Below are positions 30,856 to 54,147 of a stretch of DNA of 64,000 nt, one piece after another. Every line of letters begins with the position of its first letter. Positions within the stretch are counted from its first letter, which is position 1. The translations under genes were made by a program, and so were the position numbers. The notes beneath the pieces were generated by a model. It had not been told where the DNA came from, did not search any database, and saw only the letters and a list, made by a program, of their open reading frames with translations. Location of the stretch: positions 1 through 64,000 of the forward strand of contig WPIO01000363.1 in assembly GCA_009760855.2 (NCBI GenBank), written 5' to 3'. The DNA comes from Cristatella mucedo (lineage: Eukaryota; Bryozoa; Phylactolaemata; Cristatellidae).

Positions 30856-30859
30856 TTTC

Positions 30860-31075
30860 CACTGAAATTGATTGCCGCTCGTGCAAATGTACACTCCAAT
30901 ATCTATATTCCCACCATCCATGTCACGCTCAAAATCAAGAATCGCAGTTCATTCAAAAAAACCTTCGAAATTTCACGTTCGGTCGGTATATTTGATGAGG
31001 CATCAAACGGTAAGGAGGAAACAATGTCTTGTTGATAGATACTGAGTGCTCTCTCGCGTATCATATGCTTTTCTC
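30860..31075 (+). repeat. Decayed relative of the pogo-like element at 48884-49169
   Basis: Shared blocks in order: TGTCACGCTCAAAATCAA against GGTCACGCAAAACAATCAA; CTTCGAAAT; GTTCGGTCGGTATATT against GTTCAGTATATT; GGAGGAAACAATGTCTTGTT against GGAGGAAACGATGTCTGATA. The terminal repeats are not seen, so only the core is retained. Confidence 0.5.
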
Positions 31076-31850
31076 GACTGCCGAAAATTTGAATTATGAC
31101 AAGCTTTCCACTTCCTATCTACGGTGCACAGTCCAAGCAGCTTGCAGAAGTTTGCCTCGGGTGATTTTAAGACTACACGTCCATGCGAAACAAAGTCCAG
31201 AACAGCAGCAAATTTTAATTTAGTTCAATAATCTGGAAGATAGCTTGACTACTTTGTACTGATGAGGCAAGAGTTAGCTAAAGGAGCAACGAGGTTGTTT
31301 AATTTTACGGAACCACAGCTTTTGCTGCTTAGAGGCAGATGCTAGGTGCCATGTGATCAGCCACTGGCAGACAATTCTAAAGCAATAACGACTCTGCACA
31401 TACGAACACATGCTGGCCGTCGTGCCGGGTGAGGTGGGTGTTTAACCGTGTCACGCTTTTTAGGTTTCTGTGTATTCCGACAAAAAATGACGAGTGACTA
31501 ATCAGGAAGTGCCCAAGTGGCCTACCAGAAGCTGGTTTCCACAACTTCGATGAGTCCTACCAGCCGGTAGGGCTTCACCCCAACTTCAGCTTCTAATGTG
31601 GAATTTATCCATTTGGATGGAGTTTCAGCGATCTATATGTCAAGCTTGGATGTTGGCATGCTGTCCTTGGAAAACCCCTATATTTTTGCAGCAGTCCCTT
31701 CTATTGGCCCTGGCACTCGACCGGAACTGTCAGGCACAACGATACAGGAATATCTATGCAAGCAGCAGGTGCTGCAGCCGGCAGCTATGATGCAGCTGCT
31801 GTGGCCTGTGCCCTGTGTGCCTTGGCAACAATATCTTGCTGTTGATTAAG
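31076..31850. other. No supported feature
   Basis: An 83-codon plus-strand frame at 31598-31849 (including DGVSAIYMSSLDVGMLSLEN) overlaps another frame of 64 codons. Neither resembles a known family, and I see no splice pair that would support an exon. Confidence 0.35.
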
Positions 31851-31852
31851 AA

Positions 31853-31985
31853 TAATATAATTCATTTGTATAGCATCTTTCGAGAACCTAATCTCTATTC
31901 AGGCACCCTATGCTTTTATGCCACGGGTCTCGATCCCACTGCCTCAGCCAGACATTGGTCTGGGGGAATACTTTAAGGGTATGCC
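31853..31985 (-). repeat. SINE S2, minus copy
   Basis: Reverse complement shows the tRNA-like head, a B-box-like GGGATCGAGACCC, and AGGGTGCCTGAATAGAGATT with AGGTTCTCGAAAGATGCTAT, the LINE-B-type end. The tail AATTATATTATT lies at 31850. Confidence 0.65.
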
Positions 31986-32095
31986 TAGCAGTAGCTGAGT
32001 TATGTCACCACCAAATGGAATTTATCTTTTCCAACAGCATATTTATCGGATTTGGACAGAATAATAGAACGGATGGCATGCAATTGTCACAAACA
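31985..32095 (+). repeat. Dispersed repeat R2, left half (interrupted)
   Basis: This matches 8205-8322: CAGTAGCTGAGTTATG, GCATATTTATC, GGATGGCATGCAATTGTCAC. The match stops where the LINE-A insertion begins and resumes at about 32629. Confidence 0.5.
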
Positions 32096-32628
32096 ACAAC
32101 GATCTTCTAGATCTATCAGCTGCCTTGAATACCATTGATCATGATGTCCTACTAAAACGATTGAGAACAACGATTGGTATAGCAGAATGAGCACTGGCAT
32201 GCTTTAAATAGTACTTGTCTGATCGTGTTCAATCTGTGTCGTGTGGGGTCACGTCTCACCCATGAGACCGGTAACCTGTGGAGTCCCTTGAGGGTCCGTT
32301 CTCGGTCCCATGCTGATCTCCTTTTATACCCTGTGAAGGAACACGACTCTTGCAACCAGTGAGCACTAGGCAGAGACCTCGCAACGGCTCTTTCAGACGC
32401 CCTATGCAGCCACAAGCTCACGAACGGTGGAAGGGCTGACGACAACTCGGCAGTCCTGACCAAATCCATGTACATGGAGGCATCTGTGGGGGCATCAATC
32501 TACCACAAGCTGCCGACAGCTGTCGGGCAGTTTCGGAATGGACAACGGCCCGACAGTGCGAAAAACAAAGCATGCATGGAAAATAAGGGCTGCAGAAGGG
32601 GTACAACAGAGACGGAGACGGAGATACA
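32096..32628 (+). mobile_element. LINE-A fragment inserted into repeat R2
   Basis: It begins with RT motif A (DLLDLSAALNTIDHDVLLKR), continues LRTTIGIAE-ALACFK and the SVSCGVTS block to about 32335, and ends in the LINE-A terminus GAGACGGAGACGGAGATACAT. The 280 bases between (32336-32600) are not recognisable LINE-A, so the copy is internally rearranged. It has stops. Confidence 0.7.
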
Positions 32629-32765
32629 TGCTATAACATAGGCTACCGTTTGATGTAATCATAGCTGCTCTGTTGATCTTCTGATGACTTGTAAGAGTCA
32701 AGGTAAGGTGTAGCTCTGAGGCTCAACCAAATATTACTATATCATCAAATCAACAGATTGATGTT
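32629..32765 (+). repeat. Dispersed repeat R2, right half
   Basis: This matches 8338-8480: TAACATAGGCTACCGTTTGA, TCTGATGACTTGTAAGAGTC against TCTAATGCCCTGTAATAGTC, and AAGGT...GGCTCA.CCA. It ends in ATCATCAAATCA in both copies. Confidence 0.55.
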
Positions 32766-32884
32766 TGTGTTTTTTACCACACTATAACACTGCCTTACTC
32801 AGTCCACCTGTAGAGCACAGGCAGGACTTGTATTCTTATTGCAACTGTCGGAGCTGTGTGCCGACAGTAGCAATAAGAAAACAA

Positions 32885-33080
32885 GGGGAGAGGGCTGAGC
32901 TCTTGCAAGTCTATTCCGTGAAAAGAACGAAGCCATGCACCGATCCGTGATGTAACCCATATTTCAGCCTACCGAAGGGAAGCCTAGCTTCCTAAAGAGC
33001 TAGTTTAGCGTCCCAACGAGCAGCCAAACAAGCTAACTGAGCAGTGGACCTACACAACGGTGCATTAGGGCCGGTAATGG
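32885..33080 (+). repeat. Dispersed repeat R3, left half (interrupted by LINE-B)
   Basis: This matches 38375-38470: GAAGGGAAGCCTAGCTTCCT against GAAGGGTAGCTCGGCTTCCT, CAAGCTAACTGAGCAGTGG and GGGCCGGTAATGG. The match stops exactly where LINE-B starts. Confidence 0.6.
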
Positions 33081-33412
33081 CCTACCAAAGCCTTGAACTC
33101 ACTCCCGACTTCCGTCACGACGTCCCCTCACTTATCTTCATTTTAAAAGACATTAAAAACAAACCCATATATCTCAGCATTCAGTGGGTTCCTGTGATTC
33201 GTCATTTTATGTGTTCTTATTCATGTTGACAATGTTGCAAGCTGTGACTAACCACACTTGCATGCTGACCTTGTACATGTCACCCCTAACCATGTTATTC
33301 GTGTTGTTTATCGAGCATGATCCAATCGTGTTTTCGTTTGCAGCAAATATGAAGCACCCAGAGAATGATTGAGCTATCTGAGAGCACTTTATCGAGCATG
33401 TTATTATTATTG
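33081..33412 (+). mobile_element. LINE-B, 5'-truncated insertion inside R3
   Basis: It begins at the end of the C-terminal region (AYQSLELTPDFRHDVPSLIF), continues into the 3' UTR (ACCACACTTGCATGCTGACC) and ends AAGCACCCAGAGAATGATT-GAGCTATCTGAGAGCACTTT with TTATTATTAT. The matching uninterrupted R3 copy at 38.4 kb gives the pre-insertion sequence. Confidence 0.8.
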
Positions 33413-33595
33413 ATATGCCGCTGCTGGTCTTGGGCTTGACCCCTAAACCTTGGGAACAATGTGTACACCAGTCCGTCTCCAAAGCTTTTTCTATCAAACC
33501 AGGTAGTGGCTGATTTGGGCCCCTCAGTTGGAGCTTCTTTAGCTTAGCTAAGGCAGCCTGGAGCAGCCAGCTTTCAGATTATACGAAATGGCAGA
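33413..33595 (+). repeat. Dispersed repeat R3, right half
   Basis: This matches 38471-38650: GGGCTTGACCCCTAAACCTTG, GGTAGTGGCTGATTTGGGCC, CCTCAGTTGGAGCTTCTTTA and GCTTAGCTAAGGCAGCCTGG. Confidence 0.6.
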
Positions 33596-33701
33596 CGGTG
33601 GCCCACATTGCTTTCCATTAGGCTTTGAAGTCAGCTTCTGCTGCAGCTTATTTGGCAGTGCTGCAATCCTTCTACGTAATGATTTAACCCCGAAAATAGA
33701 T

Positions 33702-36700
33702 AATGCATCTCCGTCTGTAACTCCAAAAATTCATAAAGAACATGTGCATGTGGGGATTATCCAGGAGAGTTTTGCATAGCATGCTCACAACCTGAGCGGC
33801 TTCCGGTACGCATTCGGTAGCCAACAGACTATGTCTCAAGCAACAAAGAGAAAGTGGGAAGCATAGCAGAGTCAGCCGAGCAGATGAGGTAGAGAGTAGC
33901 ATGGAAGTGGCAGCTCAGGACCCCTGAAATGGATGAGCCATATTCGGCAACAGGAGAGATTTTGTCGTTGCATAATGATTGTGGAAGCAAGCTCTACAGT
34001 CTAGAACCTGCAGAGCGAAAGCTTCTGTCGATAACGGTCTTTAAGCAGAGGAATGGAAAAGCTAATTTATTGTCCACACAGAACCTGACGGCGCAAAGAG
34101 ACTGAAATCGGTGCAGCAGTTAAGCTAGGTACGAAGGAGCCAAGCAGTGGCTGGCCTTGTGGGTCAGCATAAGAACTTTGTTCTGTATCTCTTGCTCAAC
34201 CATCATCCGTCCTAGCTCTTTTAACAATAGAGACACGTGCTCGAACCTGTGGGACTTGAAGACTAGCTTGTCAGCCATATTCAGAGTAAGCTGCAGTGAC
34301 CTACTTCCTTTCTTTGGTAGCCCAGCCAAATGGAATTACAATAATCAAGCTGAGACAGAAGTAAGGAGCTAGTAAAATTTTTTACAAGCATCTGTGGAAA
34401 ACAGCTCTTAGTCTGGGATAGAGGTCAGACGTGACGGCTAGCTGTAGAAGCAGTCTTTTGAATGAAGCTTTTAAAATTGAGGCAGCTGTCAAAAACAACA
34501 CCTAAATTTCGACCACGTGGTGATGGTCGCACAACATCACCTATTAGAAGAGCAAAGCGTTTCAATCCAGCCTCAATCTTAGTGTCCCATGAGCCGCTGT
34601 TCTATTTTATCGTCATTTAATTTCAGGAAGTTTTCCGACATCCAGGATCGAATGTCGGCAAGGCAAGCGTTCAGTTTCTTAGTTGCTGCAGCAGATTGCG
34701 AGGGTTTGAATGACAAATGCATCTGAGTATCCTCAGCATAAAAGCTATATCCTCTTCCGTGGGCCTTAATTGGTTTTCCCAGAGGTTGAGTATAAATGGA
34801 GAACAGGAAATGACCGAGTACAGACCCTTAAGGGGCTCAACAGGTGACCCTTCTCGTGTGTGAGCTCTGATCCACACGGGACACTTATTGAACGCGATCA
34901 GACAAGTACGATTTAAACCACGCCAGTGCTTCGTCTGCCTGACCAATCGTCGTTCTCAATCGTTCAAGCAGAACATCCTTTCTGAGTAGAATGTCATCGT
35001 TTACATGTAGGAGAGCAGTTTCAGTGAAGTGCTGCCTCTTGAACCCTGATTGAAATGTCTGAATTTTCATTCTTTTCAAATGCTTAATCAGCTGCTCAGC
35101 AACAATTTTTTCAAGAATCTTTGACAAGAAATGAAGAAGGGACACTGGGCAATAGTTTGCAAGGACATAAGTGTCTAATTCAGGCTTTTCAAGTATGGGT
35201 CTAACGACTGCCGATTTGAAGTACTTGGGGACGACTCTTTTTCTCAAAGAAGTATTAAAAATCTTGGTTATGGCACGGCCAAGTTAATCGGCCAGTGAGG
35301 ACCACGCAGGTGATGGTATAGGGTCTTCAGGAGAGCAGCTCTTTTTGTAAGACCTTATTAAGGTAGCCACATATCATGCTAAAACTTCGGAGATATTTTT
35401 AAGGAACATCACATGTTGTGGAACTGCGATTGTTTTAGTCAGAGAAGGCTTTATGGAGGCACGAATGTGCACAATGTTTTCAGTAAAGAAGGCTGAAAAC
35501 TTTTCGGATGAGCCCTTAATATCTGGGGAGTCAGACCTCTCAGCATTAGATTGTAAATGGTTTACTGTCTTATCAATCTGTTTAGGGTCTGGTCTGGCAG
35601 GAATTCTGCTTTCGGAGGAAAAAATCCTAATTCGTAAAGCTTTCGGGTGTAAACTCAAAAGAATTCTTTGAAATTGACTAGATCTGCACCAGACCCATAT
35701 TTTTCGAAACGACCTTCAAGCCTGAGCTTAACCCGGCGCATTTTCAGGAGTTTTTTGTAAATTGAATGGAATCTCCACGACTTTGAACACGGATAGAACG
35801 AACTGGAGCATGCTTGTCAAGAGCATTCCTGAGTGTCATGTTCATTGCATCAGTGAGGGTATCGAGGATGACTATCGAGTCTGAATGCAGATCAAGAAGA
35901 CCTGCATCACAGATTTCAAAAACTTGTCTACGTCAATGTTTTGTAAGTTTCGTCGCTTGACAAGTTTGACATTACTCTGTACGTACACGGAAGGTGGACC
36001 AGTAAACGAGACCGGACAACGATCTGAGAGGGTCAGTGGGCACACCACAAGGTCATCCTTAGTGATCGCGAGAGATCTAGATTATGGTCACCAACGTGGG
36101 TGGTACGATTATCGTATTGGACCAAACCAAAATTCTCCATACAGTCAAGAAACGGGCGGACCTAGCTGCTGATAGGGCTGTCAAAGTGAATATTTAAGTC
36201 TCCAGCAATCATTAACGACCTGTCACATACACATATTTTAGTGAGGAACTCTGAAAACTCTTCTATAAACAAGTGTAGACCAGCCAGAAGGAGGCCAGTA
36301 TATCAAAACAGTGAGAGGCATTGTCTTTTATGAAGATCTGATCACAACCGATACAAACGATGACCAATGCGAAAAACTGCACATCTTATAGCCAAGCGAC
36401 TCGCGAACAACAATTGCAACCCCACCACCAACTTTGTGAGAGCGCATGGACTGATAGAACAAGTACCCGTGTGGAGTGGTCTCAGAAATACTGCTACTGG
36501 AACAAGGCTTCAATCGAGTTTCAGAAAGCAGAAATATGTCTACCTTCTCCTGGACCACCTGATCGTGAACAAGTAACCCCTTGGTTTTTAACGAGCAGAC
36601 ATTTAGTAGGCAGAATTTAAGAGGCTGTCCAACAACTGGGCGACGGCTTGTATTCACGTAAGAGTTTACTCGGCCCGACAGACGCTGGCCCTTCGAATTT

Positions 36701-36860
36701 GAATTGGACATTAGTAACGGCCGCCGGGCGAGGCTTCACAATATGCTGGGCCACTGTGGGTGGGCTACTACAGCAACGAGTACTATTCAGAGCTTTAAAC
36801 TTATGGGTCACTTCCGTTCGACGAAACCTGCTCCTAAGTGGTTCTTAGCAGAACTAATTG
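33702..36860 (-). mobile_element. LINE-A, longest copy: endonuclease, RT and C-terminal regions, inactive
   Basis: Read from 36860 down: an N-terminal segment, an apurinic-type endonuclease (FCLLNVCSLKTKGLLVHDQV, LLSETRL, GGGVAIVV and, at 36186-36203, GDLNIH), a linker (FFTENIVHIRASIKPSLTKT), RT (YFKSAVVRPILEKPELDTYV, ILEKIVAEQL, FQSGFKRQHFTETALLHVND) and the C-terminal AGLPKKGSRSLQLTLNMAD. It ends in the LINE-A terminus at 33702. RT motif A (DLSAAFNTID in the 17.3-kb copy) is missing: about 22 residues are lost between HVNDDIL and VLLERL near 34985. Motif C reads YAED, not YADD. With stops and frameshifts it is dead. In a CR1/L2-type LINE the endonuclease nicks the target and the RT copies the RNA there. 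Confidence 0.92.
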
Positions 36861-36889
36861 CTTGGCCTGCTGTGAAGAGCCAGACAAAC

Positions 36890-37425
36890 TGATTGAATGG
36901 ATGAAGGTTACGCTTGGAGGTTTAGGGCTAGCAATAACTGTTGCCATAACTATGTCCCGCTGGGGGCAAAGTAAGATTGTGCAGATTCTATCTGTATGTG
37001 CAGCATTGGAGTTTAGAAATTGACATGTTAATGGGCAGGGAGCGATCGAAGCAAAGGTACAAAAGTCTCATCTGCATAGAAGAGAACGTTTGGATTGTGC
37101 CTGACTGCTACACCGGAAAGAGGGGTAGTATAAACAGTACAAAGAACAATACTAAGCAAAGAGAACTAAGGTACCCCATACTCCAGTACTTCCTCGTGTG
37201 ATTATTTTCCATTTCACATCAATCCACTGGAGTCTTCCACTGAGATAATACGTAAACCATTGCAGTGCAGAGCCAGTGATGCCCAGGCGAGAAGAGAGGC
37301 ACATGAGAACGGCTTGGTAGTCGACAGTGTTAAAAGCTGCCGAAAGATCGAGCAAAACAAGTATAGAGAGACTACCTTCCTCTCCATTCCAAGTCGTTAT
37401 ACGCCCCAACCAATGCTAGAAAATT
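36890..37425 (-). mobile_element. LINE-B RT fragment
   Basis: The minus-strand reading SILVLLDLSAAFNTVDYQAV, LGITGSALQWFTYYLSGRLQ is RT motif A and what follows; the ADDTQ region falls near 37060-37090. It is directly upstream of the long LINE-A on the same strand. A block at 36900-36975 (GGCTAGCAATAACTGTTGCC) recurs at 39370-39425. Confidence 0.8.
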
Positions 37426-38374
37426 GGAATAGTCGCATAGTTGGTGAGCTACCCGTTGATAAATAAGCTCTTGGAGTGCTCGATGGTATAAATAACTTAT
37501 CAATTTCCTCATATATGTTTGCTGGTGTACTACTGAGTCGCATTACGGTCAAGCATTATTAAGACGGGGAAGAGAGAGAGAGAGGGTTAGATCCTATACC
37601 CCTCTTGTCTTTTCATTTCCCCATTCCTTTTCTCCTCTCCTCACATGGAGGTGCATAAGGACAGCTCTCAGGTTAACTATGATACGAGCCCTTACCTTAG
37701 TGGGTTTGACTAGGGCACCTGGTGCAAACCTGCTCATGTTAGAATGAAGGCTGGTGCAGATCTTCTTGGGGTCAGTATGTGATGCACCGACTAATATGCT
37801 TCGCAAACAAAGAGGGCAATGATTGCATGCTGGCACAGGAGTTATCCAAGTCGACTCAGCAAAAATGCAAAAGCCTGGTAACGAACTCCTCGTGGTCAAT
37901 AGGAGCGTGCACGAGTTTTTTTGTTCAGGTGGGAGGAAATAAAGTGTAGATGACTGAGAGAGCTTGCAGCTGAAGGAATTGATGAGACAGAATAGGCTTG
38001 GAGAGCTTCAACGAACCTACGGCGACAAAGAGCTAAGTGTGACCTCGACAGTCCAGTTGTGATAAACCAACTACTCAGCCGCTCGTATCTTGGAGTGCTG
38101 AAGCTGTCTGCCTTCGGGGTCGGGACCATCGCTTGCGAACGCATGCATGAGGTGGGTTTATTACACTTTGGAAATTCTCACAGCTAAAACTCTGTGGAAT
38201 CGGTTCGCTCCACATGCAGTGATCATGCTGGTGCGTAATCACGACTACTGGGCCAGCAATAAGCTGTTGCTTTGGGCTCAGCATTTTATTTTTAACTTCA
38301 CAGCTGCTCTGCATGGTGAGGTCTAACGGTGGACAAACGCTGGGCCTCGGTGTCAGGAATACGAAGTGGCCGGA
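37426..38374 (-). other. Unrecognised pair of adjoining minus-strand open frames
   Basis: Frames at 37896-38144 (82 codons; RYERLSSWFITTGLSRSHLA, CRRRFVEALQAYSVSSIPSA) and 37594-37899 (101 codons; PGFCIFAESTWITPVPACNH, CPLCLRSILVGASHTDPKKI) meet at 37896-37899 with a change of frame. Together they would give about 180 residues, with a CNHCPLC cysteine cluster. No family is recognised and no splice structure is clear. They could be a decayed mobile-element ORF, an exon or chance. Confidence 0.3.
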
Positions 38375-38650
38375 AGAGGGATGAGCTCTGAAGGGTAGCT
38401 CGGCTTCCTACTAGATAAGCTAGCTAACTGCACAGTGGGCGTTCAAAGGTGGATATGGGCCGGTGATGATAAGCTGAGGCTCTGGCTTACGCTTGACCCC
38501 TGAACCTTGGGATAGTTGGGCACACCAAGCCGGCTCCAGCCCTTCCTTGCTCCCAAATCCGGTAGTGGGCGATTGCTGCCCCCTCAGTTTGAGTTTCTTT
38601 GGCTTAGCTTGGGCGGCCTCGAGCACCTAGTTAGCTGCCACATCAAACGA
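38375..38650 (+). repeat. Dispersed repeat R3, uninterrupted copy
   Basis: This is the empty-site counterpart of 32885-33080 plus 33413-33595; ATGGGCCGGTGATGAT runs directly into AAGCTGAGGCTCTGG and GCTTGACCCCTGAACCTTGG. Class unknown, no coding capacity. Confidence 0.6.
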
Positions 38651-39030
38651 AGTTTCCGGCTGGCAACCCATGCTGTTGTCCACCAAAGCTGCCTTAGTCC
38701 TGCTGCTGCAACGCAACAACGACGAGCGGCTGTGAGCTTTCTACGCAGTCTACCCACGCGCCGCCGACAGGCGGCTCGGTTCAGGACGCATTCGCACGTG
38801 GCGACTAGCTCGTTTGCGAACGCAGCATTGCCACTGGGCCGGGATAGAGATTCTGTAGAAACGGAAGCTTTGCGAAGCGGCGAAAAGAAGAAGCGGGCTG
38901 CCACTGCCGAGCTGCTGAATTCCCAATCCGTCGCTCGAGTCTGACGTGCCGCCGCCGCCGCCACCGCCGCGCCACGTGGTGTATGTGTAGCGATACTTGG
39001 ACCCGAAGCTAAATAAGCTGGCCATGTAGT
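38651..39030 (-). other. CpG-rich patch with a possible minus-strand exon
   Basis: GC- and CpG-rich, with a (GCC)n run at about 38948-38972. A 91-codon minus-strand frame from the ATG at 39025 begins ASLFSFGSKYRYTYTTWRGG. The first 13 residues resemble the LFSxGSKxRYSGRT stretch at the end of FERM domains, but the match stops there, a stop codon lies just upstream and no acceptor is obvious. Overlapping plus- and minus-strand frames of 142 and 126 codons reflect the GC content. Confidence 0.2.
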
Positions 39031-39124
39031 CGGCTCCTCCAGCTATGGTTTATTTGGTACTGCTGCCATCCTTTGGCATAATCATGTAATTGCTAAAATA
39101 CTCCCGATAGATTAAATTAAATTT

Positions 39125-39240
39125 AATGCTAGCTGATTTAACAGCCACTCTTGTGTAGCAACAGAAAAGCCTTTAAGACATCGGGACCAAGGTCATGAAA
39201 AGCAACAGCCTTACCTAGTGTGCCATCACGGCTCACCGAT
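39125..39240 (-). repeat. SINE S1, decayed minus copy
   Basis: On the minus strand: GTGATGGCACACTAGGTAAG, CCTTGGTCCCGATG, GGCTTTTCTGTTGCTACACA and GTGGCTGTTAAATCAGCTAG. The B box is deleted. LINE-B-like sequence follows at 39280-39310 and 39355-39430. Confidence 0.7.
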
Positions 39241-40204
39241 TAAACCTACGCATAAGCCGTCCTAATTGAGCCACCGCCTAGAAAGAGATTTGGTTCTCTG
39301 ACAAGACATAAACACGGAATATAACGGACAAGACATAAACAAACCGAATGCATGATGCTCACCCTCGGGGGCTTAAGATTAGCAATAACCGTGGCAGTAA
39401 CTGTGTTCTGCTGGGTGCACAGTAAGCTGACTGCTGGCAGGTATAGCAGGGAGCTAACTTACCCTTAGCTTCGGCCATCCTGCCATAATCGGACTAGCTG
39501 GGTCGAGCGGCTGTAAGGAATTGCTGCCGGCCCCTCACCATATAAGGCTGAGCTTGATGCCAGAGCCTGGATTTTGATTCGCTACTTTGTTTTTGGTGCA
39601 GTGGTAACTTCCGGAAAACTGCCAAGATAGCCCATTAGGCAATGCATCTGCTGGGTATTTCCCCAACCGGCTCATTAAAAATAACCTGAGAGAGGTTGAA
39701 AAGGAATAGGGAGAGTCCCTCATTAGATATACCTACAGTGCCCCATCTGTGATTAAAATATCGACTTTCGTGCTGTTTGATTCCGACTGTTCTCCTTGTT
39801 AGAGAGTTTGAGGCAATTTGATTAAATTAACGTTGCATTTCGGCTATGTCCAGCCCATAGGGCCTGCCTCTAATGTTCTCCATTCGTCCTTTGTGCCTGC
39901 TTATATTAGCCATGCTATGGCGGCTTCGAAGGAAGTTATAACTTTAATGTACGCTGTCGTTTCATTTCCATACGATTGCAAATCCCATGATTTAGCTTCC
40001 GTGGATATGAATCTGCATGTCAAAACAGTGTCTAGCTTTGAAGATGTGGCTGCAAGATGTACGTGCACTCCTTAACAGCATGGAACTGCTCAACCTCACT
40101 CCAAACCAGAGTTAAACCTTACCCAACTTAATCTCTCAATTTAAGTGCAACGACACCTACAGTTTCTCAAATTTTGGAAAATGTAATATATTTTGATATG
40201 TAGT
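39241..40204. other. No gene recognised
   Basis: Apart from short LINE-B scraps near 39280-39430 (matching 36900-36975), I see no supported feature. Frames at 39535-39723 and 39818-40075 are short and unlike known proteins. Confidence 0.35.
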
Positions 40205-40350
40205 ATACAAAAAATATTCATTTGCTTAGCGCCCCAAGAGAATTTAATCTCTATTCAGGAGCTTAACATATGCCTCGGGACTCGAGCCCACAACCTTAGC
40301 CAGACCTTGGTCGTGGCAAGCTTCTTAACCACTGGACCAAACCTGATCTG
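40205..40350 (-). repeat. SINE S2, minus copy, well preserved
   Basis: On the minus strand: GGTTTGGTCCAGTGGTTAAG, AGGTCTGGCTAAGGTTGTGG, B box GGGCTCGAGTCCC, then AAGCTCCTGAATAGAGATTA and AATTCTCTTGGGGCGCTAAG, ending CAAATGAAT. The 3' part is the LINE-B hairpin. Confidence 0.85.
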
Positions 40351-41482
40351 ATCATCTGTTTAATGATTATGTTATTTGCTGCTAATATTCCTATCTTCTA
40401 TCGTGTATGTATAAACAGCTTACACAATCTCTTACAGTTTGAGCTATCTAGATGTAGCTAATGTCGTTTGGTTCGCCCATCAGTTGAGAGCCAGCCGATG
40501 CCTAACTCGGACAGTTTATTACCAAGCATGGAGCCGAAGAGCACACGGCTCCCCCCCCCCCCGTCCCTACTCTCGCTCGACTCCCTCCTCGACCCTGGTT
40601 GTCCCTTAGCCGACCCCGATGGTGAATCCACCATTTGTTCACCACTGGGTTATCTGCCTGTGTCAATGCCTCATTAGAAGCTGACCACAGCTGTGCACAG
40701 GCCCCTCTCAGGGATGCTCCCACCAGCTTTTGAGGAAAGAAGCTGTACCAGCCCGCATGCAGTCGAACTACAGCTAACACAAACTTAATCAGTGTCTGGA
40801 CAAAGCAGGAAAGCCGAACTGCTGCTGTCGCCGTCGACTTCCATCAATCCGTTCAGTAAGGTTTCGTGCATTGCTTATTATTCCTATTTGCAGCGTCCGA
40901 GCTTGTTTCTCTCTTAGTGGAGCTTGTCGGCTCCTTCGAAACTGTCGATCCACGGTGCTGCGACGATGCTCGATACTTTTGACTGCCGACAGCGGTTTCC
41001 GTGGACAAGATGCTGCCGTCCACCATCACAGTCAATTGACGTTCTGGCGACACTGTGTGTCTGTGCTCGAGCCTGCCCAATCCCCACAGCGAAGGTGCTT
41101 CAGCATGACAATGGGCTATGCAAATTCAGCTTTTGCTGTGGGGGGGACTGCTTGTGCGATCCTTTTTTGTGGTGGCACGAGGTCTGTAGCGAAATTCTGT
41201 GGTAGCCACCCTGCGACCATCCTGCCTCTGCTTTGGGTCGCACCCCCTCCCTGTACGTACGAGTTGACAGCAAGTCATTCAAATTGTGCATCAGCAGTTT
41301 CCTCAGCTTTTAATCTTCGTCACCAGTCAAGCCGCTTCCACTCTGTCGGATGCTGTTTGTCCCATTTTTGTGCATGGGTCATTTTCTTCGTGCCCATCCG
41401 TCGGCAACATGGCTGCTTGCTGTCAGATTGCATCGTCCGAAAGCTGCAGCCGCCGTATCGAGTACTGCACCCGGGGCCTCAC
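40351..41482 (+). other. No supported gene; longest open frame of the window lies here
   Basis: A 206-codon plus-strand frame at 40871-41491 (start MLIIPICSVRACFSLSGACR) is rich in Cys and Ser, has no recognisable domain and runs into the LINE-A tail. One frame this long is roughly what chance allows in 64 kb of locally GC-rich DNA. A run of about a dozen C residues is at 40551-40563. Confidence 0.3.
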
Positions 41483-41740
41483 CTCATGTAATGTATCTCC
41501 GTCAGTAACTCCACAAAGTCATAAAGACCATGTGGGTGTTACGCAGGAGAGTTTTGTATAGCGCACTCACAGCCTAAGCGGCTTTCGGTACGCATTCGGT
41601 AGCCAACAGACTTCGTCTCTCGAAACAAAGAGAAAGTAGGAAGCATAGCAGAGTCAGGAGAGCAGTTGAGGTAGTGAGTAGCATAGAAGTAGCAGTTCAG
41701 GACCGCTGAAAAAGATCTGCCATAGTCGGCAGTCGGCAGG
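41483..41740 (-). mobile_element. LINE-A 3' end fragment
   Basis: TCATGTAATGTATCTCCGTC (reverse complement of the terminus), GTAACTCCACAAAGTCATAA and ATTCGGTAGCCAACAGACTT match the other LINE-A 3' ends. UTR only. Confidence 0.85.
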
Positions 41741-42097
41741 CACGTGATGCCTGGGACGGCAGCTGTGGCAGCTGCTGGTCGCTGGCTTGATTATTTTGAA
41801 TGACTTGCCAGTGGAACTGCCTGCTTCTCTAAGCTGAGCAAGGAACATCGGGACTTGCCAGTCTGCCTCGTTAGAGCCAGACACAGCCTGCCTGGCAGGC
41901 TCTGCTTTGCAACGACTCGCAGTGCGGCAGGGCATTAGGATGGCTACTTTTTTTATGCTATTCACCGAGTCTAGCCTTAGCAAACACCAGTTTTAATTTT
42001 ATGACGTTGTCCCTCTTGCTTTGATTTTTTCATCAGATTTCTTAACCCTTACTCGTCATAATCCCCTTGAAGAGTTTGAATATATCCAATATAATTT
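41741..42097. other. Nothing recognised
   Basis: Short stretch between the LINE-A end and SINE S2, with no signature. Confidence 0.4.
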
Positions 42098-42242
42098 TAT
42101 ACAATTCATATGTATATCGCCCTAAGAGAACTTTATCTCTATTCAGGCGCTTCATACATGCCTCGGGACTCGAGCCCACTACCTCTGCCAGACCTCGGTC
42201 CAGGCGAGCACCATGACCACTGTACCAAACCAGCTCTTAATA
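42098..42242 (-). repeat. SINE S2, minus copy, best preserved
   Basis: On the minus strand: GGTTTGGTACAGTGGTCATG, GTGCTCGCCTGGACCGAGGT, B box GTGGGCTCGAGTCCCGAGGC, then AAGCGCCTGAATAGAGATAA and AGTTCTCTTAGGGCGATATA, ending ATATGAATT. The GCGCC...GGGCG and AGAGA...TCTCT stems match the LINE-B terminal hairpin. Confidence 0.88.
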
Positions 42243-43677
42243 AGCTGCCCCTGCTGTAGGCGATGCCAATTTGTATTGATTTTTCTAAATACCCCTATGA
42301 TCTATATTTGAAGCTCCGTATATAAATTGGATCCATTGGAAGTTTTCTTATTCTTGCTTGTCGGTGTTTGGTCCGCCATTGCTTCTTCCTCCCCCACCCC
42401 TCAGTCTTAACCTCCCCCTAGCGGTCTCCTCCCCCTTCCCGTTTACTTTTGGCTCTGGTCACCACAAGAGATTTTGGTTATAGCCGAGTGAGTGAGCTTC
42501 GAGAGTCACTCGGCCAAGTCACCTCACTCTAGGTTAGTTAGAGCAGAGCTAGAGGTCAGAGTCTGCCCTAGGACTTGAGGTCAGAATTTGAGCAATTGGT
42601 CAGAGTTTCAGCTGCAGCTGAGCAGATTTTGCTCCTAGGTAAACGTTGCTGCTAATACAGATAGCTCAGCTCATTGCAGCTCAGCTGTTGAACCTTCACC
42701 CCCCCCCCCATTACTGGCCAGGGCAGACCTTCTCATGGTTTAAGGATCAGTAGCATCAAAGGACTTCGTGTTAACGTGCATCATCGACAAATTGTGATCG
42801 ATCTTACACTAATACATTATTAATAGTTTTATCGTAAATAGGAGGTACACTGAAAAACGAAGTGCGAATTTAGGGGTACACGTGAAAGCACTGTTCGGTT
42901 AATGTGTATGACTTGCTCAGTAGCTTATTGGTTGGTTGGCTGTACCAGAATCCCGGCTGCCTGCTCCAGAAGGCTCAGCTGTTGCTGCTGCTGCCTTGAT
43001 TCGGCAGCACTAAGACCGTCCAACCGTCCTCTTGTCTGTGACTGTCACTGGGCTTAGATCATTAATCTTCCAGTCCTCTTGATTGATTATTGATGACCTT
43101 GTCCTTTCTCCATCTCTTCCCATGTCATCTTACTGGCACGGCTAGGTGTAGCAGCACCCGGCGTCCTGCCGGAGCTGCACAGAGCTTTCGGAGCTGCCTT
43201 CTTCCATGGCTCAACTTGTGTCCCCTGTGGCTCGAGCTTTCCACCACGTACAGCTGTCTGCCGTCTCGCCGAGCTTTGTCGTACGCGAGATAGCAGTGAT
43301 GATGGCCGATGTCGCCGAGCTCTCTGACTCCTAGAGCTTGCAGCAGCATCTAGTCACTTTGCTCAGCTCAACGATCCAAGAGCCAGACACCTGCGGCTGG
43401 CCATTGCCACGTGTGCAGCGTCCCCCTCCCCCGGGGTGAAGGGACAGGTGCCACTGAGGCAAGCGAATACGGATAGCCTGGACCCTCGGTCACAGCGAAC
43501 AGGTCACCGAACACAGATAACCTGCAGTGATGTGACTGAAGCACTTCGATACGTCTGTCCTCGAACAACGGCCTCTGCTGCAGCAGCAGCAGTACCCTGT
43601 GTCTAAGCAGCAGGCCGAGCCGTGAGTGAAGCACTCCTACAGCAGCTCGTTAGTCCTGCAGTGACTGCACTGCACTG

Positions 43678-43920
43678 ACATGGTCGTCGTGTCTGTTGCT
43701 TCGTCTCGCTGGTATCCAGCAGCTCAGCTCACTGATGCTCACACCGTACGTGCTCTGCAATAACATGGTCATGTCTGTTGCTATGTCTCACTGGTGTCCA
43801 GCTGCTCAGCTCACTGACGCTCACACCGTATGTGCTCTGCAATAACATGGTCAGGTCTGTTACTCCGTCTCACTGGTGTCCAGCTGCTCATGATGCTCAT
43901 GCTGCCGTACGTGCTGCTAG
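43678..43920 (+). repeat. Tandem repeat, about 83 bp x 2.8, in D1 copy 1
   Basis: The word ACATGGTC recurs at about 43678, 43763 and 43845, each followed by GTCTGTT-CT-GTCTC-CTGGTGTCCAGC and GCTCAGCTCACTGA-GCTCAC. The counterpart at 52078-52310 has the same organisation with small differences. Confidence 0.7.
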
Positions 43921-44087
43921 CATCGTACTCCTTCATTTCGTGCTTCCCAGCAGTGGATGAATGGCGGATGTCATCATGGCCACTTGAATGCAATTGAGTG
44001 GCCCACTGAGAGCTGCTTTAGTCGCTTGCCGAAGGCTACACGAGAGCAGAAGTAAAGCCGGCAGAGCTGAAAGCACCGGTCAGCTGA

Positions 44088-44196
44088 TGCTGATACCACC
44101 TCATTTACATAGCAGCAGAAGAGCCTTAAGGCCACCATCACTGCTTGCAGAGGGCTCAAAGGGATTGCCTGCTGCAGGACTCAAGAAACGTGAACA
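44088..44196 (-). repeat. SINE S1 fragment in D1 copy 1
   Basis: GGCAATCCCTTTGAGCCCTC, GCAGTGATGGTGGCCTTAAG and GGCTCTTCTGCTGCTATGTA on the minus strand match the S1 body. The tRNA-like head is lost. The same fragment is at 52486-52592 in copy 2, so it predates the duplication. Confidence 0.65.
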
Positions 44197-44435
44197 CCCA
44201 AAGTAATACCAGCCAATCAGCCGTGCATTTGTTTAATGATGCCTGAAGCAGTGAATGTCAATTCAGTGTAAAGTATGCATTGCAATGTCTGCACAGTGGT
44301 CTCTCTCTCTCTCTCCCCTATTCAATTCCAAGTTAAAGTGGCACTCTGTGTATCAGTTTTCTCTATCGAACCAAATGAAACAAGTCAATACAGCTGACAT
44401 TTTTCCGCATCGACATGATGCCGGTTTTTTAACTT

Positions 44436-44960
44436 TAACTGAGGTTTGTACGAGGTATTGGTAAACTGCAAGATTCCGAAAAGTGGGCGGTACGATGCTT
44501 AGCCTGGTGGAGGAGTAGATGTGATAGGTAGGCTGGAGCCTAAGAATGAAGGGACCTAAAAGTGAGTGACAAAACTTTGAAATCGATCTATTGCTTGACC
44601 GGCAGCCTGTGCAGGTCGGCTAGAAGTGGTGTGATAAGGCAAGTGAGATGCTCACGACAGACAAGTCTATCTGCTGAGTTTTGCACCAGCTCAAAACACC
44701 TGATTGCACATGCCGGTAGGCCACCAAGCAGTGAGTTACAGAAGTCAAGGCAGGATGTCACAAATGGATCGACCAACTTAGATGTGGTATCCCCATCTAA
44801 ACAAGCCCAAATTTTTCCAATGTTATGTAGCTGAAAGTAGACAGACTTCATTGTGGAGTTTGATGTGGTCGTCTAACGAGGGGTCACTTTGGAACATGGG
44901 ACATACATTTTGAGCTGATTCAATCTGACGAATGCTGGCAGATGTAGTGCTATGGAATTA
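44436..44960 (-). mobile_element. LINE-B C-terminal fragment in D1 copy 1
   Basis: Minus strand: SKLVDPFVTSCLDFCNSLLG, CREHLTCLITPLLADLHRLP. Its 3' end is missing, although the counterpart in copy 2 (52985-53860) keeps it. Confidence 0.85.
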
Positions 44961-45231
44961 TTAAATATATTTATATGCCTGTATATTTTACTTGGCTTTT
45001 TATGCGCCTTCTTGGATGCTTCTGCAAGGATTCTTAAATTGGGTAGTCCTACCCCACGAATTACGCCGGCTAGAGTAAACATTCAGCGTCTTCTCGGGCC
45101 GTCCAGCTCACTCACAATCGATTGCTGCAGTGAGTCACTATATTTAGTGGTCATCGAACCTATAACTCCCCTGGTCAGTGTTGCAGCAGCTGCTCTGCTG
45201 AATGCATGTTCACTATGCCATAACCACGAAG

Positions 45232-45425
45232 ACCACTCTTTAAGTGTCTTGGTCTGTAGTTCCACAAAGACTGTGGGTGATCAACAGGAGTGTTTTGTGT
45301 AGCACACTCCCAGCCTAAGCAGCATTCAGTACGTATTCGGTAGCCAACAGACTTCGTATCACGAAACAAAAATCAAGGAATGCTGAGAAGCATAGCTGAG
45401 TCGGGAGACCTGTTGCACTGTTGCC
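45232..45425 (-). mobile_element. LINE-A 3' fragment in D1 copy 1
   Basis: TAGTTCCACAAAGACTGTGG, GTATTCGGTAGCCAACAGAC and GAAGCATAGCTGAGTCGGGA on the plus strand are the reverse complement of the LINE-A 3' UTR. The same piece is at 54150-54312 in copy 2. Short repeats of GTCGGCACTACTTTTT follow. Confidence 0.75.
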
Positions 45426-46420
45426 TCCTTTCGACCTCGCTCGCTTGTCGATCCAGTCTGCACTACTTTTTCAGGATTAAGTCGGCACTACTTTTTTTGG
45501 GTTTCGGGCCAGTCAGCACTACTTTTTCCCCTTTTGCAAGCTGTTGGCAGCAACCACTACTGCTGTGAAGGCACTGCTCGGCACGGCACTGCTCTGCAAA
45601 ACTGGATTGGCTCCAACATTTTCCTGCTCGTGTCCAACCCTACTCACCTACAATAATGAATTTGACGGCGGAGCTAAGTTTCTGCGAGCGTTTGCCGGGC
45701 AGCTTCTCGGGGAATCGCGTATTCTGTCAGGCATTCGAGCTCGAGTTGTGGGCGGGGCTAAATCGGCCATCAATTATTCTTTAATCTGTTGCGGGTAGAC
45801 GCCGTAGCTCGGAGGATGGTCGGCCTCGGCGTGCGGGAAAGTCTGCTATGAAACGCAGCTTGACAAACAATTAGTCCTCTTGGCATGGTAGAGCTGGATG
45901 CCGACGTAGATATCATAGATAGCTGCGTACAGCCAAAACAACGCTGTGTCAGATTAAATAGAACAAAACAGCACCTATGGCGAAACCGCTTAGGTTAGCC
46001 TCTACTGCTTCACACGCCCAGCTGAGTGGCTATTCACTCGCATCAGCCGCGGTAAATTCGCTCTTCACATTCTAGCGTAAAGCGGGTGCGATCAACTGCA
46101 GAGGTTTTTTCAAGTTATCTTTTTCCAGGAAGTTAGGATGTCCGGGAAAGTTCCTTATAGGTGCAGTCAATGTCCCCCCAAACTGTGACTCATATCCCTC
46201 ATAATAAGTGACATCCGAGGTAAGCACGAATAAGAGGCAATAATTAATACGAAGAAATAATTGATAACAATTAATGATTAACAAGAAGCGAAAATGGTGT
46301 AAGTAGAAATCAGACGCGATAATTCTAAGGCTCGGCCAACAGCGACTATTCAATGTAGTAGTTCAAACCGGCGAGCTGTAAACCGACCTAAGCCGAACAA
46401 CTAGGCAACTAATGCAACGG

Positions 46421-47565
46421 TTGAGTTCGCCGATCAAGTCGTAGCTCCTCATCGTTTCGGAGCATTCCATAACGTTCCGGAGCGATGTCGCCGCGTTTGA
46501 GAGGTTCGCTCCCAGCCCGCTGAGAGAGGAACAAAAGACGTCGCAATGCCATCACGTGCCGTACAACGTACCGTCAATTCGAGGCAGCCGTCGACTAATC
46601 GGCAGGCAATTCCTTTGGAAGTCACAGAGGATCTATTGACCACGCGTGGATTTTGAAAGTATTCTTGGATACATTTATCTTTTCATTTTTTCCATAACCG
46701 TGGCAGAGTTTGCATCTCCAAATTTTTGTAAGTAGAACCGTCATAAGTCGTAAGTGTAAGTGTAAGTGTAAGTGTAGCAGCCTCTACGTCACGCGAGAAT
46801 TGGGCGGCAAACGCTGCCGTAACTGTACTAGTCTCGGTCAAGGTGGGACGAATGCCGATGACGCTTTGAGCTTCTGAAACTTGGCTAATAGTAATACATT
46901 TGTATAGCGCCCTGAGAGAGCTCAATTTCTTTCTAGGAACTTTGAATACGCTATAAAGGAAGCTCGATCATCAAAGGTAGGTGGTAATATCTACGCGTCA
47001 ACAAGTACAACATGGTTAGAGGTAGCAGGCACATTGTCAACATTAGAAATGGTCGATGGTAGCCTGCACACAATGGAACGTCGCAAAGATCCACAAAACT
47101 TTATGAGAAATAGGCATAACGACTTGCCGGTGCCGCAACAATGCATGCAGTTATGCAGGCAATAGCGGAACGTGGTTGCAACAAATTGCGCTCATAGCTT
47201 ATTATGAAAAGTCCTTTCGACAGCGTATAGAAGTACATTTGCCTGCTATGGAGGTTTATAGGCAGTCAGTGCCAGCCGTGGCCAGAGTAAAACTCTCGTA
47301 CCACTCGTACCTATAATAGAGTGCAGCCCCTCGAGTAGCCAACCGAGATATAAAGCTCTGCTTCTCAACAGCTTGAGCGCAACTGACCACCCACTTGACT
47401 TTGTTGTGGCTTTTACGCTGTTTAACCACGAGTTGTCACGTAATTAATTGTAAGCAGTTGTAATTAACTAGCCGCTATTATTGAGCCTCTCATATCTCAA
47501 TAAATAGCTTGCGCTAGCATGCAGCAGTTTTAACGCGCTTTGAGGGCGGAGTGCGATTACCACCG
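46421..47565. other. Spacer with a LINE-B tail and a hexamer repeat
   Basis: A LINE-B 3' end lies on the minus strand at 46890-47065 (ATAGCGCCCTGAGAGAGCTC, TCTTTCTAGGAAC). A (GTGTAA)n run of about four units is at 46757-46780. The remainder, 47066-47565, shows nothing recognisable. Confidence 0.6.
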
Positions 47566-47842
47566 CCATAGGCAACGACAACTACTCTCCTGCTGCCGAC
47601 TATGGCACATGCTTTTCAGTGGTCCTGAGCTGCTACTTCTATGCTACTCACTACCTCAACTGCTCTCCTGACTCTGCTATGCTTCCCACTCGATCTTTGC
47701 TGCGTGAGACGAAGTCTGTTGGCTAACCGAATGCGTACCGAAAGCCGCTTAGGCTGTGAGTGTGCTGTATAAAACTCTCCTGCGTAACACCCACATGGTC
47801 TTTAGGATTTTGTGGAGTTACAGACTGTAATACATTACATAG
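47566..47842 (+). mobile_element. LINE-A 3' end fragment
   Basis: GGCAACGACAACTACTCTCC, CTGCTACTTCTATGCTACTC and TTTGTGGAGTTACAG, ending in AATACATTACAT. The last coding codons and UTR only. Confidence 0.88.
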
Positions 47843-49179: not shown

Positions 49180-49262
49180 AATAGATTTGTATTGTGCCCC
49201 CAGAGAACTCTGTCCAGGCACTCTGCATGTGACGTAAAGGAAGAACGGTCGAATTGTCAGCG
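49180..49262 (-). mobile_element. LINE-B 3' end scrap
   Basis: GTGCCCCCAGAGAACTCTGT and CCAGGCACTCTGCATG match the reverse complement of the LINE-B terminus. It borders the pogo-like element. A C-terminal scrap (GCCAGGCTTTGGGAGCATGC) follows at about 49590-49675. Confidence 0.6.
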
Positions 49263-50200: not shown

Positions 50201-50232
50201 TGTCAATTGGATCCGTTGGAAGTTTTCTTATT

Positions 50233-50754
50233 TGTCGCTCACTTTTAGGTCTCTTCATTCTATGGCTCCAGCCTATCTTTCAGAGATACTACCCCATCAG
50301 GCAAAGCATCGTACCACTCGCTTTTCGGAATCCAACAGTCTAGAAATACCTCGTACAAACCTTAAATCCTTTGGAGACCGTGCATTTAGCTCGTATGCTC
50401 CCACAGCCTGGAACTCCCTCCCGACCTGCATCAGAACATCCCCTGACCTGACCACATTTAAAAGAAACTTAAAAACATACCTATTTAGGACAGCATTTAG
50501 TGGGTCCTTGTGATTCGTCCTCGATGTGCTTATGCGTGCTGACACTGTTCATGCTGCCACTAACCACATTTGCATGCTGACCCAGTGCATGTAACCCCTA
50601 ACCATGTTATTCATTTTGTTTGTTTTTCAAGCATGATTTTACTTACTATTCTATTGTGTATCACTTTGCAGCAAATGTAAAGCGCCTAGAAAGAGATTAA
50701 GTTCTCTGAGGGCGCTTTATCAAGTGCAATATTATTATTATTATTATTATTATT
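50233..50754 (+). mobile_element. LINE-B, 522-bp insertion with a known empty site
   Basis: Open frame to the end of the C-terminal region (SLTFRSLHSMAPAYLSEILP, ESNSLEIPRTNLKSFGDRAF, AWNSLPTCIRTSPDLTTFKR), 3' UTR, the perfect terminal hairpin at 50679-50718 (AAAGCGCC...AGAGA-TTAAGT-TCTCT...GGCGCTTT) and (ATT)n. Copy 1 of the duplication reads AGTTTTCTTATTCTTGCTTG at the same place, so the insertion point lies between TTATT and CTTGC; any target duplication is at most about 5 bases and merges with the ATT tail. Confidence 0.95.
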
Positions 50755-52077
50755 CTTGCTTGTCGGTGTTTGGTCTGCCATTGCTTCTTCCTCCCCCACC
50801 TCTCCATCTTAACCTCCCCTCGCGGTCTCCTCCCCCTTCCCGGTTACTTTTGGCTCTGGTCACCACAAGAGATTTTGGTTATAGCCGAGTGAGTGAGCTT
50901 CGAGAGTCATTCGGCCAAGTCACCTCACCCTAGGTTAGTTAGAGCAGAGCTAGAGGTCAGAGTCTGCCCTAGGACTTGAGGTCAGAGTTTGAGCAATTGG
51001 TCAGAGTTTCAGCTGCAGCTGAGCAGATTTTGCTCCTAGGTAAACGTTGCTGCTCGATGCAGATAGCTCAGCTCAATGCAGCTCAGCTGTTGAACCTTCA
51101 CCCGCCCCCCCCCCATTACCTGCCAGGGCAGACCTTCTCATGGTTTAAGGATCAGTAGCATCAAAGGACTCCGTGCTATCGTGCATCATCGACAAATTGT
51201 GATCGATCTTACACTAATACATTATTATTAGTTGTATCGTAAATAGGAGGTACACTGAAAAACGAAGTGCGAATTTAGGGATACACGTGAAAGCACTGTT
51301 CGGTTAATGTGTATGACTTGCTCAGTAGCTTATTGGTTGGTTGGCTGTACCAGAATCCCGGCTGCCTGCTCCAGAAGGCTCAGCTGTTGCTGCTGCTGCC
51401 TCGATTCGGCAGCACTAAGACCGTTCAACCGTCCTCTCATCTGTGACTGTCACTGGGCTTAGATCATTGATCTTCCAGTCCTCTTGATTGATTATTGATG
51501 ACCTTGTCCTTTCTCCATCCCTTCCCGTGTCATCTTAGTGGCACGGCTAGGTGTAGCAGCACCCGGCGTCCTGCCGGAGCTGCACAGTGCTTTCGGAGCT
51601 GCCTTCTTCCATGGCTCAACTTGTGTCCCCTGTGGCTCGAGCTTTCCACCACGTACGTCTGCCGTCTCGCCGAGCTTTGTCGTACGCGAGATAGCAGTGA
51701 TGATGGCCGATGTCGCCGAGCTGTCTGACTCCTAGAGCTTGCAGCAGCATCTAGTCACTTTGCTCAGCTCAACGATCCAAGAGCCAGACACCTGTGGCTG
51801 GCCATCGTCACGTGTGCAGCGCCCCCTCCCCCGGGGTGAAGGGACAGGTGCCACTGAGGCAAGCGAATACGGATAGCCTGGACCCTCGGTCACAGCGAAC
51901 AGGTCACCGAACACAGATAACATGCAGTGATGTGACTGCAGCACTTCGATACGTCTGTCCTCGAACCACGGCCTCTGCTGCAGTGGCAGCAGTACCCTGT
52001 GTCTAAGCAGCAGGCCAAGCCGTGAGTGAAGCACTCCTACAGCAGCTCGTTAGTCCTGCAGTGACTGCACTGCAGTG

Positions 52078-52312
52078 ACATGGTCGTCGTGTCTGTTGCT
52101 TCGTCTCGCTGATATCCAGCAGCTCAGCTCACTGACGCTCGCACCGTACGTGCTCTGCAATAACATGGTCGTGTCTGTTGCTCCGTCTCACTGGTGTCCA
52201 GCTGCTCAGCTCGCTGACACTCACGCTGTAGTGACATGGTCATGTCTGTTACTCTGTCTCACTGGTGTCCAGCTGCTCATGATGCTCATGCTGCCGTACG
52301 TGCTGCTAGCAT
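52078..52312 (+). repeat. Tandem repeat in D1 copy 2
   Basis: Counterpart of 43678-43920: ACATGGTCGTCGTGTCTGTT and TAACATGGTCGTGTCTGTTG units, with the third unit shortened. Confidence 0.65.
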
Positions 52313-52485
52313 CGTACTCCTTCATGTCGTGCTTCCCAGCAGTGGATGACCGGCGGATGTCATCATGGCCACTTGAATGCAATTGAGTGGCCCACTGCAA
52401 GCTGCTTTAGTCGCTTGCCGAACGAAGGCTACACGAGAGCCGAAGTAAAGCCGGCTGAGCTGAAAGCACCGGTCAGCTGATGCTG

Positions 52486-52592
52486 ATACCGCCTCATGTA
52501 CATAGCAGCACAAGAGCCTTAAGGCCACCATCACTGCTTGCAGAGGGCTCAAAGAGATTGCCTGCTGCAGGACTCAAGAAACCTGAACACCC
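52486..52592 (-). repeat. SINE S1 fragment in D1 copy 2
   Basis: Same body fragment as 44088-44196 (GGCTCTTGTGCTGCTATGTA on the minus strand); head lost. Confidence 0.65.
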
Positions 52593-52984
52593 AAAGTAAT
52601 ACCAGCCAATCAGCCGTGCATTTGTTTCATGATGCCTGACGCAGTGAATGTCAATTCAGTGTAAAGTATGCATTGCAATGTCTGCACAGTGGTCTCTCTC
52701 CCCTATTCAATTCAAAGTTTAAGTGGCACTCAGTGAATCAGTTGCGTCTTTTAAACTGTGTGAAACAAGTCGATACAGATGAAATGCTTCTACATCTACA
52801 TGATGGCTGTTTTTTAACTCGGTGAACGACTGTAAAGTTATTGATTGTATGTTGCACGAAGGTATTAACATAAGCATGCAGTTTCTGGGCCAAATATGCA
52901 GTTGGCAGCTGCTCTCGTAGGCAGCCGGCTGCTGCTACATCTTTGCACTGGCTCTTGGTGATCTTACTATTACATACGGTAGGT

Positions 52985-53860: not shown

Positions 53861-54147
53861 ATTATATATATTTATATACCTAAATATTTCACTGGTCTTT
53901 TTTATGTGACTTCTTGGATGCTTCTTTGAGTATTCTTAAAATGGGTATTCCTACCTCACGAATTAAGTTCAGCTATAGTAAACACTAAGCGTCTTCTCGG
54001 GCCGTCCAGCACACTCACAATCGATGGCTGCAGTGAGTCACTATATTTAGTGTCCATCGAACCTATAGCTCTCCTGGCCAGTGTTGCAGCTGTGCTGCAG
54101 AATGCATGTTCACTATGGAATAACCACTAAGACTACTCTTTAAGTAT

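Follow-up and report, generated by a model that had tools for sequence, protein, structure and literature searches.

SINEs borrow the copying enzyme of a partner LINE, a scheme that is well known. By 2013, 58 SINEs with a LINE tail had been tabulated (PMC3747384). For two zebrafish L2 LINEs it is reported that deletion or exchange of the 3′ stem-loop abolished retrotransposition, that the loop above all was needed, and that recognition was specific to the LINE's own protein (PMC4176376). Recognition of the 3′ stem-loop by an L2 protein, together with SINEs carrying such a tail, is described for UnaL2 of the eel with UnaSINE1 and UnaSINE2, and for ZfL2-1 and ZfL2-2 of zebrafish (PMC4176376, PMC3747384). 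Among invertebrates, the Nin-DC SINEs of Nematostella and the sea-urchin SINE2-8_SP are listed as tRNA SINEs with L2/CR1 tails (PMC3747384, Table 1), and it is by this description that they can be likened to the SINE analysed here.

We analysed a candidate pair, the SINE S2 and the LINE named LINE-B, in a window of 64,000 nucleotides (the whole stretch of DNA under study), which looks like repeat-rich eukaryotic DNA. The carp HAmo SINE and its partner HAmoL2 resemble S2 and LINE-B in that a head related to tRNA, bearing A and B boxes, is combined with a 3′ tail shared with the LINE; the HAmo tail of about 42 bp is common to the L2-type LINE in both sequence and hairpin (PMC2653535). As far as that description goes, a single tail base distinguishes HAmo from its LINE, whereas the S2 and LINE-B majority sequences differ at 15 columns before the trailing gaps, several of them due to one indel. 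The loop is GGAUA in HAmo, which also carries (TAAATG)n and a middle region specific to its family; in S2 and LINE-B the loop is TTRAGT, and S2 has no middle region. Compared with UnaL2 and the ZfL2 elements, recognition in the S2/LINE-B pair would be read from the sequence, and the window holds no intact LINE-B ORF (the longest stop-to-stop frame of any kind is 237 aa). The pair fits the known scheme, under which recognition and mobilisation would follow by analogy, and S2 probably adds a further family to a kind that is amply documented, of which it looks like an ordinary and old example. If this is true, the known class gains one SINE/LINE pair that has a loop sequence of its own. A single window presents both LINE tails of graded age and a SINE in which an older state is preserved, so that the change of a LINE's tail and the loss of its parasite become open to genome-wide testing.

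Anatomy of the S2 copies

The S2 element at 42098-42242, a minus-strand copy, contains AGAGA-TAAAGT-TCTCT within GCGCC...GGGCG, as an earlier, sequence-only reading of this DNA had said. An nhmmer search of the window with this element returned four copies, all on the minus strand (E 1.1e-48 to 2.3e-15). They are the four that had been named before, at 27.7, 31.9, 40.3 and 42.2 kb, and no fifth was recovered in the window by this search or by a head-only profile. Below them, the nhmmer matches were LINE-type tails only, starting at S2 position 87 or later. The copies and their parts are as follows.

42098-42242, minus strand: S2 copy 1, which among the four lies nearest to their majority sequence; head about 42163-42237, tail about 42105-42161
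42165-42227, minus strand: A-box-like TGGTACAGTGG to B-box-like GGCTCGAGTCC of copy 1; the pattern has three matches in the window, 0.00 expected
42105-42161, minus strand: LINE-like tail hairpin of copy 1; -19.1 kcal/mol, z -4.55; LINE-only profile E 2.4e-5
40206-40349, minus strand: S2 copy 2; head 40275-40349, tail 40218-40273; z -3.52; LINE-only profile E 3.9e-7
27628-27773, minus strand: S2 copy 3; head 27699-27773, tail 27643-27697; z -3.45; LINE-only profile E 1.1e-5
31855-31976, minus strand: S2 copy 4; 5′-truncated head, tail 31855-31914 with decayed hairpin; z -1.25; tail E 0.038, head E 2.9e-14

The S2 head carries TGGTCCAGTGG, followed 40 bases further by GGCTCGAGTCC, and the two were assigned against the canonical A- and B-box sequences. 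The combined pattern, which was composed after the S2 copies had been seen, is present in three of the four copies and had no match in 100 shuffles (0.00 expected). S2 thus has the A and B boxes of an internal RNA polymerase III promoter at its 5′ end, the 31.9-kb copy being 5′-truncated. Neither ARAGORN nor Rfam found a tRNA in S2 in the window, so that it is the A and B boxes that carry the label 'tRNA-derived'; the score of a tRNA model is often lost in SINE heads. The head is presumably of tRNA origin. Three sub-threshold Rfam matches within 27500-42500 lie outside S2 and were taken as chance.

The head ends in CCCGAG and the tail follows directly, without a central body. The head/tail junction, which was said to be visible in all four copies, is indeed at the same point, with four extra bases there in the 31.9-kb copy. 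The claim that the copies end in the same fold as LINE-B holds for three of the four, since the 31.9-kb copy, itself 5′-truncated, has no hairpin as it stands. The earlier picture is further corrected in that S2 has no clean (ATT)n at its 3′ end. The four dispersed copies (one of them 5′-truncated) share both their 5′ and their 3′ parts, and all S2 heads that the head-only profile found in the window are followed by a tail; the next matches of this profile had E values of 0.006 or worse. At the three of the four copies examined, no target-site duplications were detected, the longest shared words of 4-6 bases being within the random range. The sample for all these statements is four copies in one window.

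LINE-B tails and their relationship to the S2 tail

The 40-nt structure at 50679-50718 of LINE-B, with stems AAAGCGCC/GGCGCTTT and AGAGA/TCTCT around TTAAGT and followed by (ATT)n, was found as described. It is commoner than had been stated: 21 LINE-type tails of very different ages were detected at E <1e-3, and a search for the 16-base hairpin core that allowed three mismatches gave 17 sites in the window where 0.85 would be expected. The LINE-B copies and tails are listed below, together with one lone tail of a different kind.

50231-50747, plus strand: young LINE-B copy, 3′ part; hairpin 50679-50718, ATT repeats 50730-50754; z -4.91
8995-9511, plus strand: young LINE-B copy, 92% against that at 50.7 kb; tail 9435-9494; z -5.00
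29030-29520, minus strand: LINE-B copy; tail 29030-29086
52985-53477, minus strand: LINE-B copy; tail 52997-53054, folded
20057-20510, plus strand: LINE-B copy; tail 20431-20490, folded
26289-26896, plus strand: older LINE-B copy; tail 26823-26878
13194-13674, minus strand: older LINE-B copy; tail CTTTATCAAATG, an intermediate form
33082-33411, plus strand: LINE-B copy; tail 33343-33402
27159-27222, plus strand: LINE-B tail with LINE-B body upstream
56197-56257, minus strand: LINE-B tail with short body; z -2.37
14879-14938, minus strand: LINE-B tail with short body
59567-59627, minus strand: LINE-B-type tail with little or no body
21069-21128, plus strand: LINE-B-type tail with little or no body
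6384-6449, minus strand: LINE-B-type tail with little or no body
16583-16629, minus strand: decayed LINE-B tail with old body upstream
46896-46951, minus strand: old LINE-B-lineage tail with S2-like block GCTATACAAATG
19062-19119, minus strand: old LINE-B-lineage tail with TTACAAATG in common with S2
12622-12678, minus strand: old LINE-B-lineage tail with the S2-like block in part
49180-49231, minus strand: old LINE-B-like tail (49185), loop lost (CAATACAAATCTATTATTA)
39273-39301, plus strand: LINE-B-type hairpin, core only
59738-59790, plus strand: lone tail, CTATACAA then ATT repeats, with a different inner arm; possibly of a sister LINE family

Directly after the decayed tail at 16583, an A-box-like TTTAGCCCAGTGGATAAGG was noticed at 16556-16599 (minus strand). 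LINE-B is tentatively labelled as L2/CR1-type from features of its C-terminus and tail. At least five LINE-B frames (8831, 53260, 29611, 6337 and 50190) were among the ten scanned, and they matched no Pfam family at E 1; the two frames scanned against NCBIfam had no match. The sole Pfam match, COX6C (frame 14198-14611, E 0.019, below its cut-off), was taken as chance. Relatives of a 148-aa LINE-B frame and of the hairpin tail core were found neither in viral nor in bacterial/archaeal genome contigs, and none of the S2 head in viral contigs, as expected from the eukaryotic source.

Homology of the tails was examined with profiles in both directions. Alignment A1 stands without the tail at 39273 (core only) and those at 49185 and 59738, which were found later and added for a tree of 25 tails. 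A profile of the 19 LINE tails, with S2 left out, found the S2 tails at 40.3 kb (3.9e-7), 27.7 kb (1.1e-5) and 42.2 kb (2.4e-5) with 20-26 bits, whereas its best score on random sequence was 9.0 bits (20 order-3 Markov windows, 1.28 Mb). The 31.9-kb tail scored 9.8 bits (E 0.038), close to this random best, and the copy is therefore assigned by its head (E 2.9e-14, with a head profile that included that copy). In the reverse direction, a profile of the four S2 tails found eight LINE-type tails at <1e-3, namely 50671 (1.6e-8), 9435 (2.1e-7), 46896 (1.2e-6) and five more. The homology covers the tail of about 60 nt and extends a few bases beyond the palindrome on both sides; the 3′ end of S2 is homologous to that of a LINE in the same genome. 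Descent from a common tail is well supported by these comparisons for three of the four S2 copies.

LINE-A, the other LINE family repeated in the window, served as a control. Most of its seven copies end in TACATTACAT, and the 3′ ends of most show forms of ...GGAGATACATTACAT.

8-922, 17691-18610, 33701-34625, 56572-57078, 41486-41736, 47569-47840 and 11585-12113: LINE-A copies
57135-57193, plus strand: decayed LINE-B-type tail, starting 57 bases past the LINE-A end at 57078

Within 250 bases beyond six of the seven LINE-A ends, no LINE-B-type hairpin was found at E <0.1. The tail at 57135 (E 1.2e-12 with the LINE profile, which includes that tail, and 0.092 with the S2 profile) is taken for a separate LINE-B fragment. 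The flanks of the LINE-A ends at 922 and 57078 have 19 bases in common at 89% (E 0.049); a longer LINE-A end keeps some probability, and LINE-A is an imperfect control.

Among the first eight tails folded, all four LINE-B tails folded far better than shuffles (z -4.42 to -5.05), as did the tails of S2 copies 1 to 3 (z -3.45 to -4.55), the 31.9-kb tail having a z of -1.25. In detail, LINE-B 52997 has a shifted inner arm, and the lower stem is re-paired in the S2 copies at 42.2 and 40.3 kb. When six further tails were folded, 56197 (z -2.37) and 19062 (z -2.69) did better than shuffles, while 46896 (z 0.21), 12622 (z 0.99), 59738 (z -0.56) and 49185 did not. Compensatory changes in the stems, to which the sequence-only reading had looked for support, did not emerge: the covariation score of 23 tails was 0.151, a value reached by 151 of 500 shuffles, in a set of mostly dead copies that gives little power. 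The named structure pairs in 80.5% of cells on these tails compared with 79.3% in shuffles, and RNAalifold returned no consensus pairs on them. Repeated double changes (CG to UA, three cells) are seen at one stem pair only, a CpG site, where decay of the two sides would look no different. With this as the informative pair and with dead copies making up most of the set, the covariation test is weak, and its outcome does not refute the pairing either.

LINE-B forms and the probable source of the S2 tail

The S2 states at columns 18, 19, 21 and 43 are present in 1, 0, 0 and 0 of the 19 LINE tails, respectively, and there is therefore no exact donor within the window. In its 3′ block, CTATACAAATG, S2 goes with LINE-B copies that rank with the most diverged and not with the young pair 50671/9435. 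At columns 52, 55, 56, 59 and 60, all four S2 copies agree with three such copies, 46896 (five of five), 19062 (four of five) and 12622 (three of five). One position favours the young form, loop column 34, where the S2 state A is common to 50671, 9435 and 12622. In the tree of 25 tails (about 60 nt), used for broad grouping only, S2 forms a clade (94) and is grouped with 46896, 57135, 12622, 19062, 49185 and 59738 with a support of 61 in the consensus tree.

The older tail form tracks the divergence of the body from the young copy (rho 0.85, 12 LINE-B copies, 6 of 10000 permutations). To arrive at these 12, the 19 LINE tails and 49185 were taken, without the reference 50671, and a copy was kept if its aligned body comprised 100 bases or more and ended no more than 60 bases from the tail. 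In simulations of decay only, this rho was reached in 79 of 3000 runs, at least four copies with the old form above the new in 24 of 3000, and a copy showing the old form as plainly as 46896 does in 5 of 3000; the old and new tail motifs were picked after the tails had been seen, which makes the rho, permutation and simulation figures optimistic. The most diverged of the 12 copies, 16583, does not carry the old block. S2 and LINE-B were also compared roughly in age: S2 lies within the LINE-B range (K2P 0.23-0.46 for the six pairs of the four S2 copies, 0.07-0.64 for 11 LINE-B copies), although the youngest LINE-B pair is closer than any two S2 copies; four copies permit no finer comparison.

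We conclude that S2 probably acquired its tail from the LINE-B lineage at a stage preceding the form seen today, or from a close sister. The claim that S2 parasitised LINE-B is accordingly narrowed, in that a SINE/LINE pair linked by the tail is the best reading, but what S2 matches is the older tails of the lineage and not the young 50.7-kb form. The LINE-B 3′ block can be arranged in a series toward the young form, from CTATACAAATG (clearest in 46896) through CTTTATCAAATG (13194) to CTTTATCAAGTG. It is conceivable, though improbable, that S2 is the fossil of a tail since changed by its partner, and that the LINE may have shed its parasite through a change of the recognition tail. On such a reading, an outer-stem mismatch would have become an A-U pair toward young LINE-B, and the old block would have been kept in S2.

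Proposed mobilisation of S2 and competing explanations

Beside the joint anatomy of the four copies, the tail homology, the fold of three S2 tails and the match to older LINE-B tails, all of which are observed, we regard it as likely that S2 is a body-less SINE with a tRNA-promoter-like head and a LINE-B-lineage tail, mobilised in trans by the LINE protein. The head with its A and B boxes would presumably be transcribed by RNA polymerase III, and it would have been joined directly to the last 60 nt or so of a LINE-B-lineage element. The hairpin (outer AAGYGCC/GGYGCT, inner AGAGA/TCTCT, six-base loop TTRAGT) would be bound in trans by the LINE-encoded protein, which would reverse-transcribe S2 at new sites. 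The donor would have belonged to an older or a sister branch of that lineage, predating the tail form of the young 9.4- and 50.7-kb copies.

A tail derived from a sister LINE family, with the hairpin inherited by that family and by LINE-B from a common ancestor, is possible but rather unlikely. The 19 LINE tails hardly or never show the S2 states CCTGAATAG and CTCTT, and the lone tail at 59738, with its similar outer stem, CCTGAA, CTATACAA and ATT repeats but another inner arm, indicates that related tails may exist; it stands beside S2 in the tree (85), albeit on a very long branch. However, the inner arm AGAGATTRAGTTCTCT is present in S2 and LINE-B and not in the 59738 tail, which is a single copy folding no better than shuffles, and the S2-like 3′ block is already found on old copies with a LINE-B body.

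Two further explanations appear very improbable. Were S2 not mobile, its tails would be 5′-truncated LINE-B ends that came by chance to lie beside tRNA-like sequence, and several LINE-B copies are indeed truncated to little beyond the tail (21069, 59567, 6384). Chance adjacency is contradicted by the homologous head in all four copies (one truncated), by the same junction (within four bases in one copy) and by tail states confined to S2. Retention of the hairpin for host gene regulation or termination could be argued from the stable fold that persists in several copies, but the old copies at 46896 and 12622 fold no better than shuffles, most hairpin copies sit 3′ of a LINE-B body or an S2 head, and the hairpin matches no Rfam family.

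Other repeats were observed in the window. A second tRNA-like repeat, with GGTTGCTTTC..CGACCTCGG..GGTTCGAATCCTGC..GCGATC and a tail unlike that of S2, is present at the following positions.

27880-27945, plus strand: second tRNA-like repeat
21850-21990, minus strand: second tRNA-like repeat
62063-62120, minus strand: second tRNA-like repeat
25986-26058, plus strand: perhaps a further copy

The S2 head profile matched at 27.9, 62.1 and 26.0 kb with E values of 0.006 to 0.02; the 27.9- and 62.1-kb matches were rejected as further S2 copies, as they belong to this other repeat with its other tail. A near-duplicate of about 3.8 kb links 42345-46135 with 50747-55038 (94%, then 91%). Its first copy starts about 100 bases from the 42.2-kb S2, and the start of its second falls where the ATT repeats of the 50.7-kb LINE-B run out, within their last bases. 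Inside the first copy, an 82-bp tandem repeat is present in 2.5 copies at 43686-43890.
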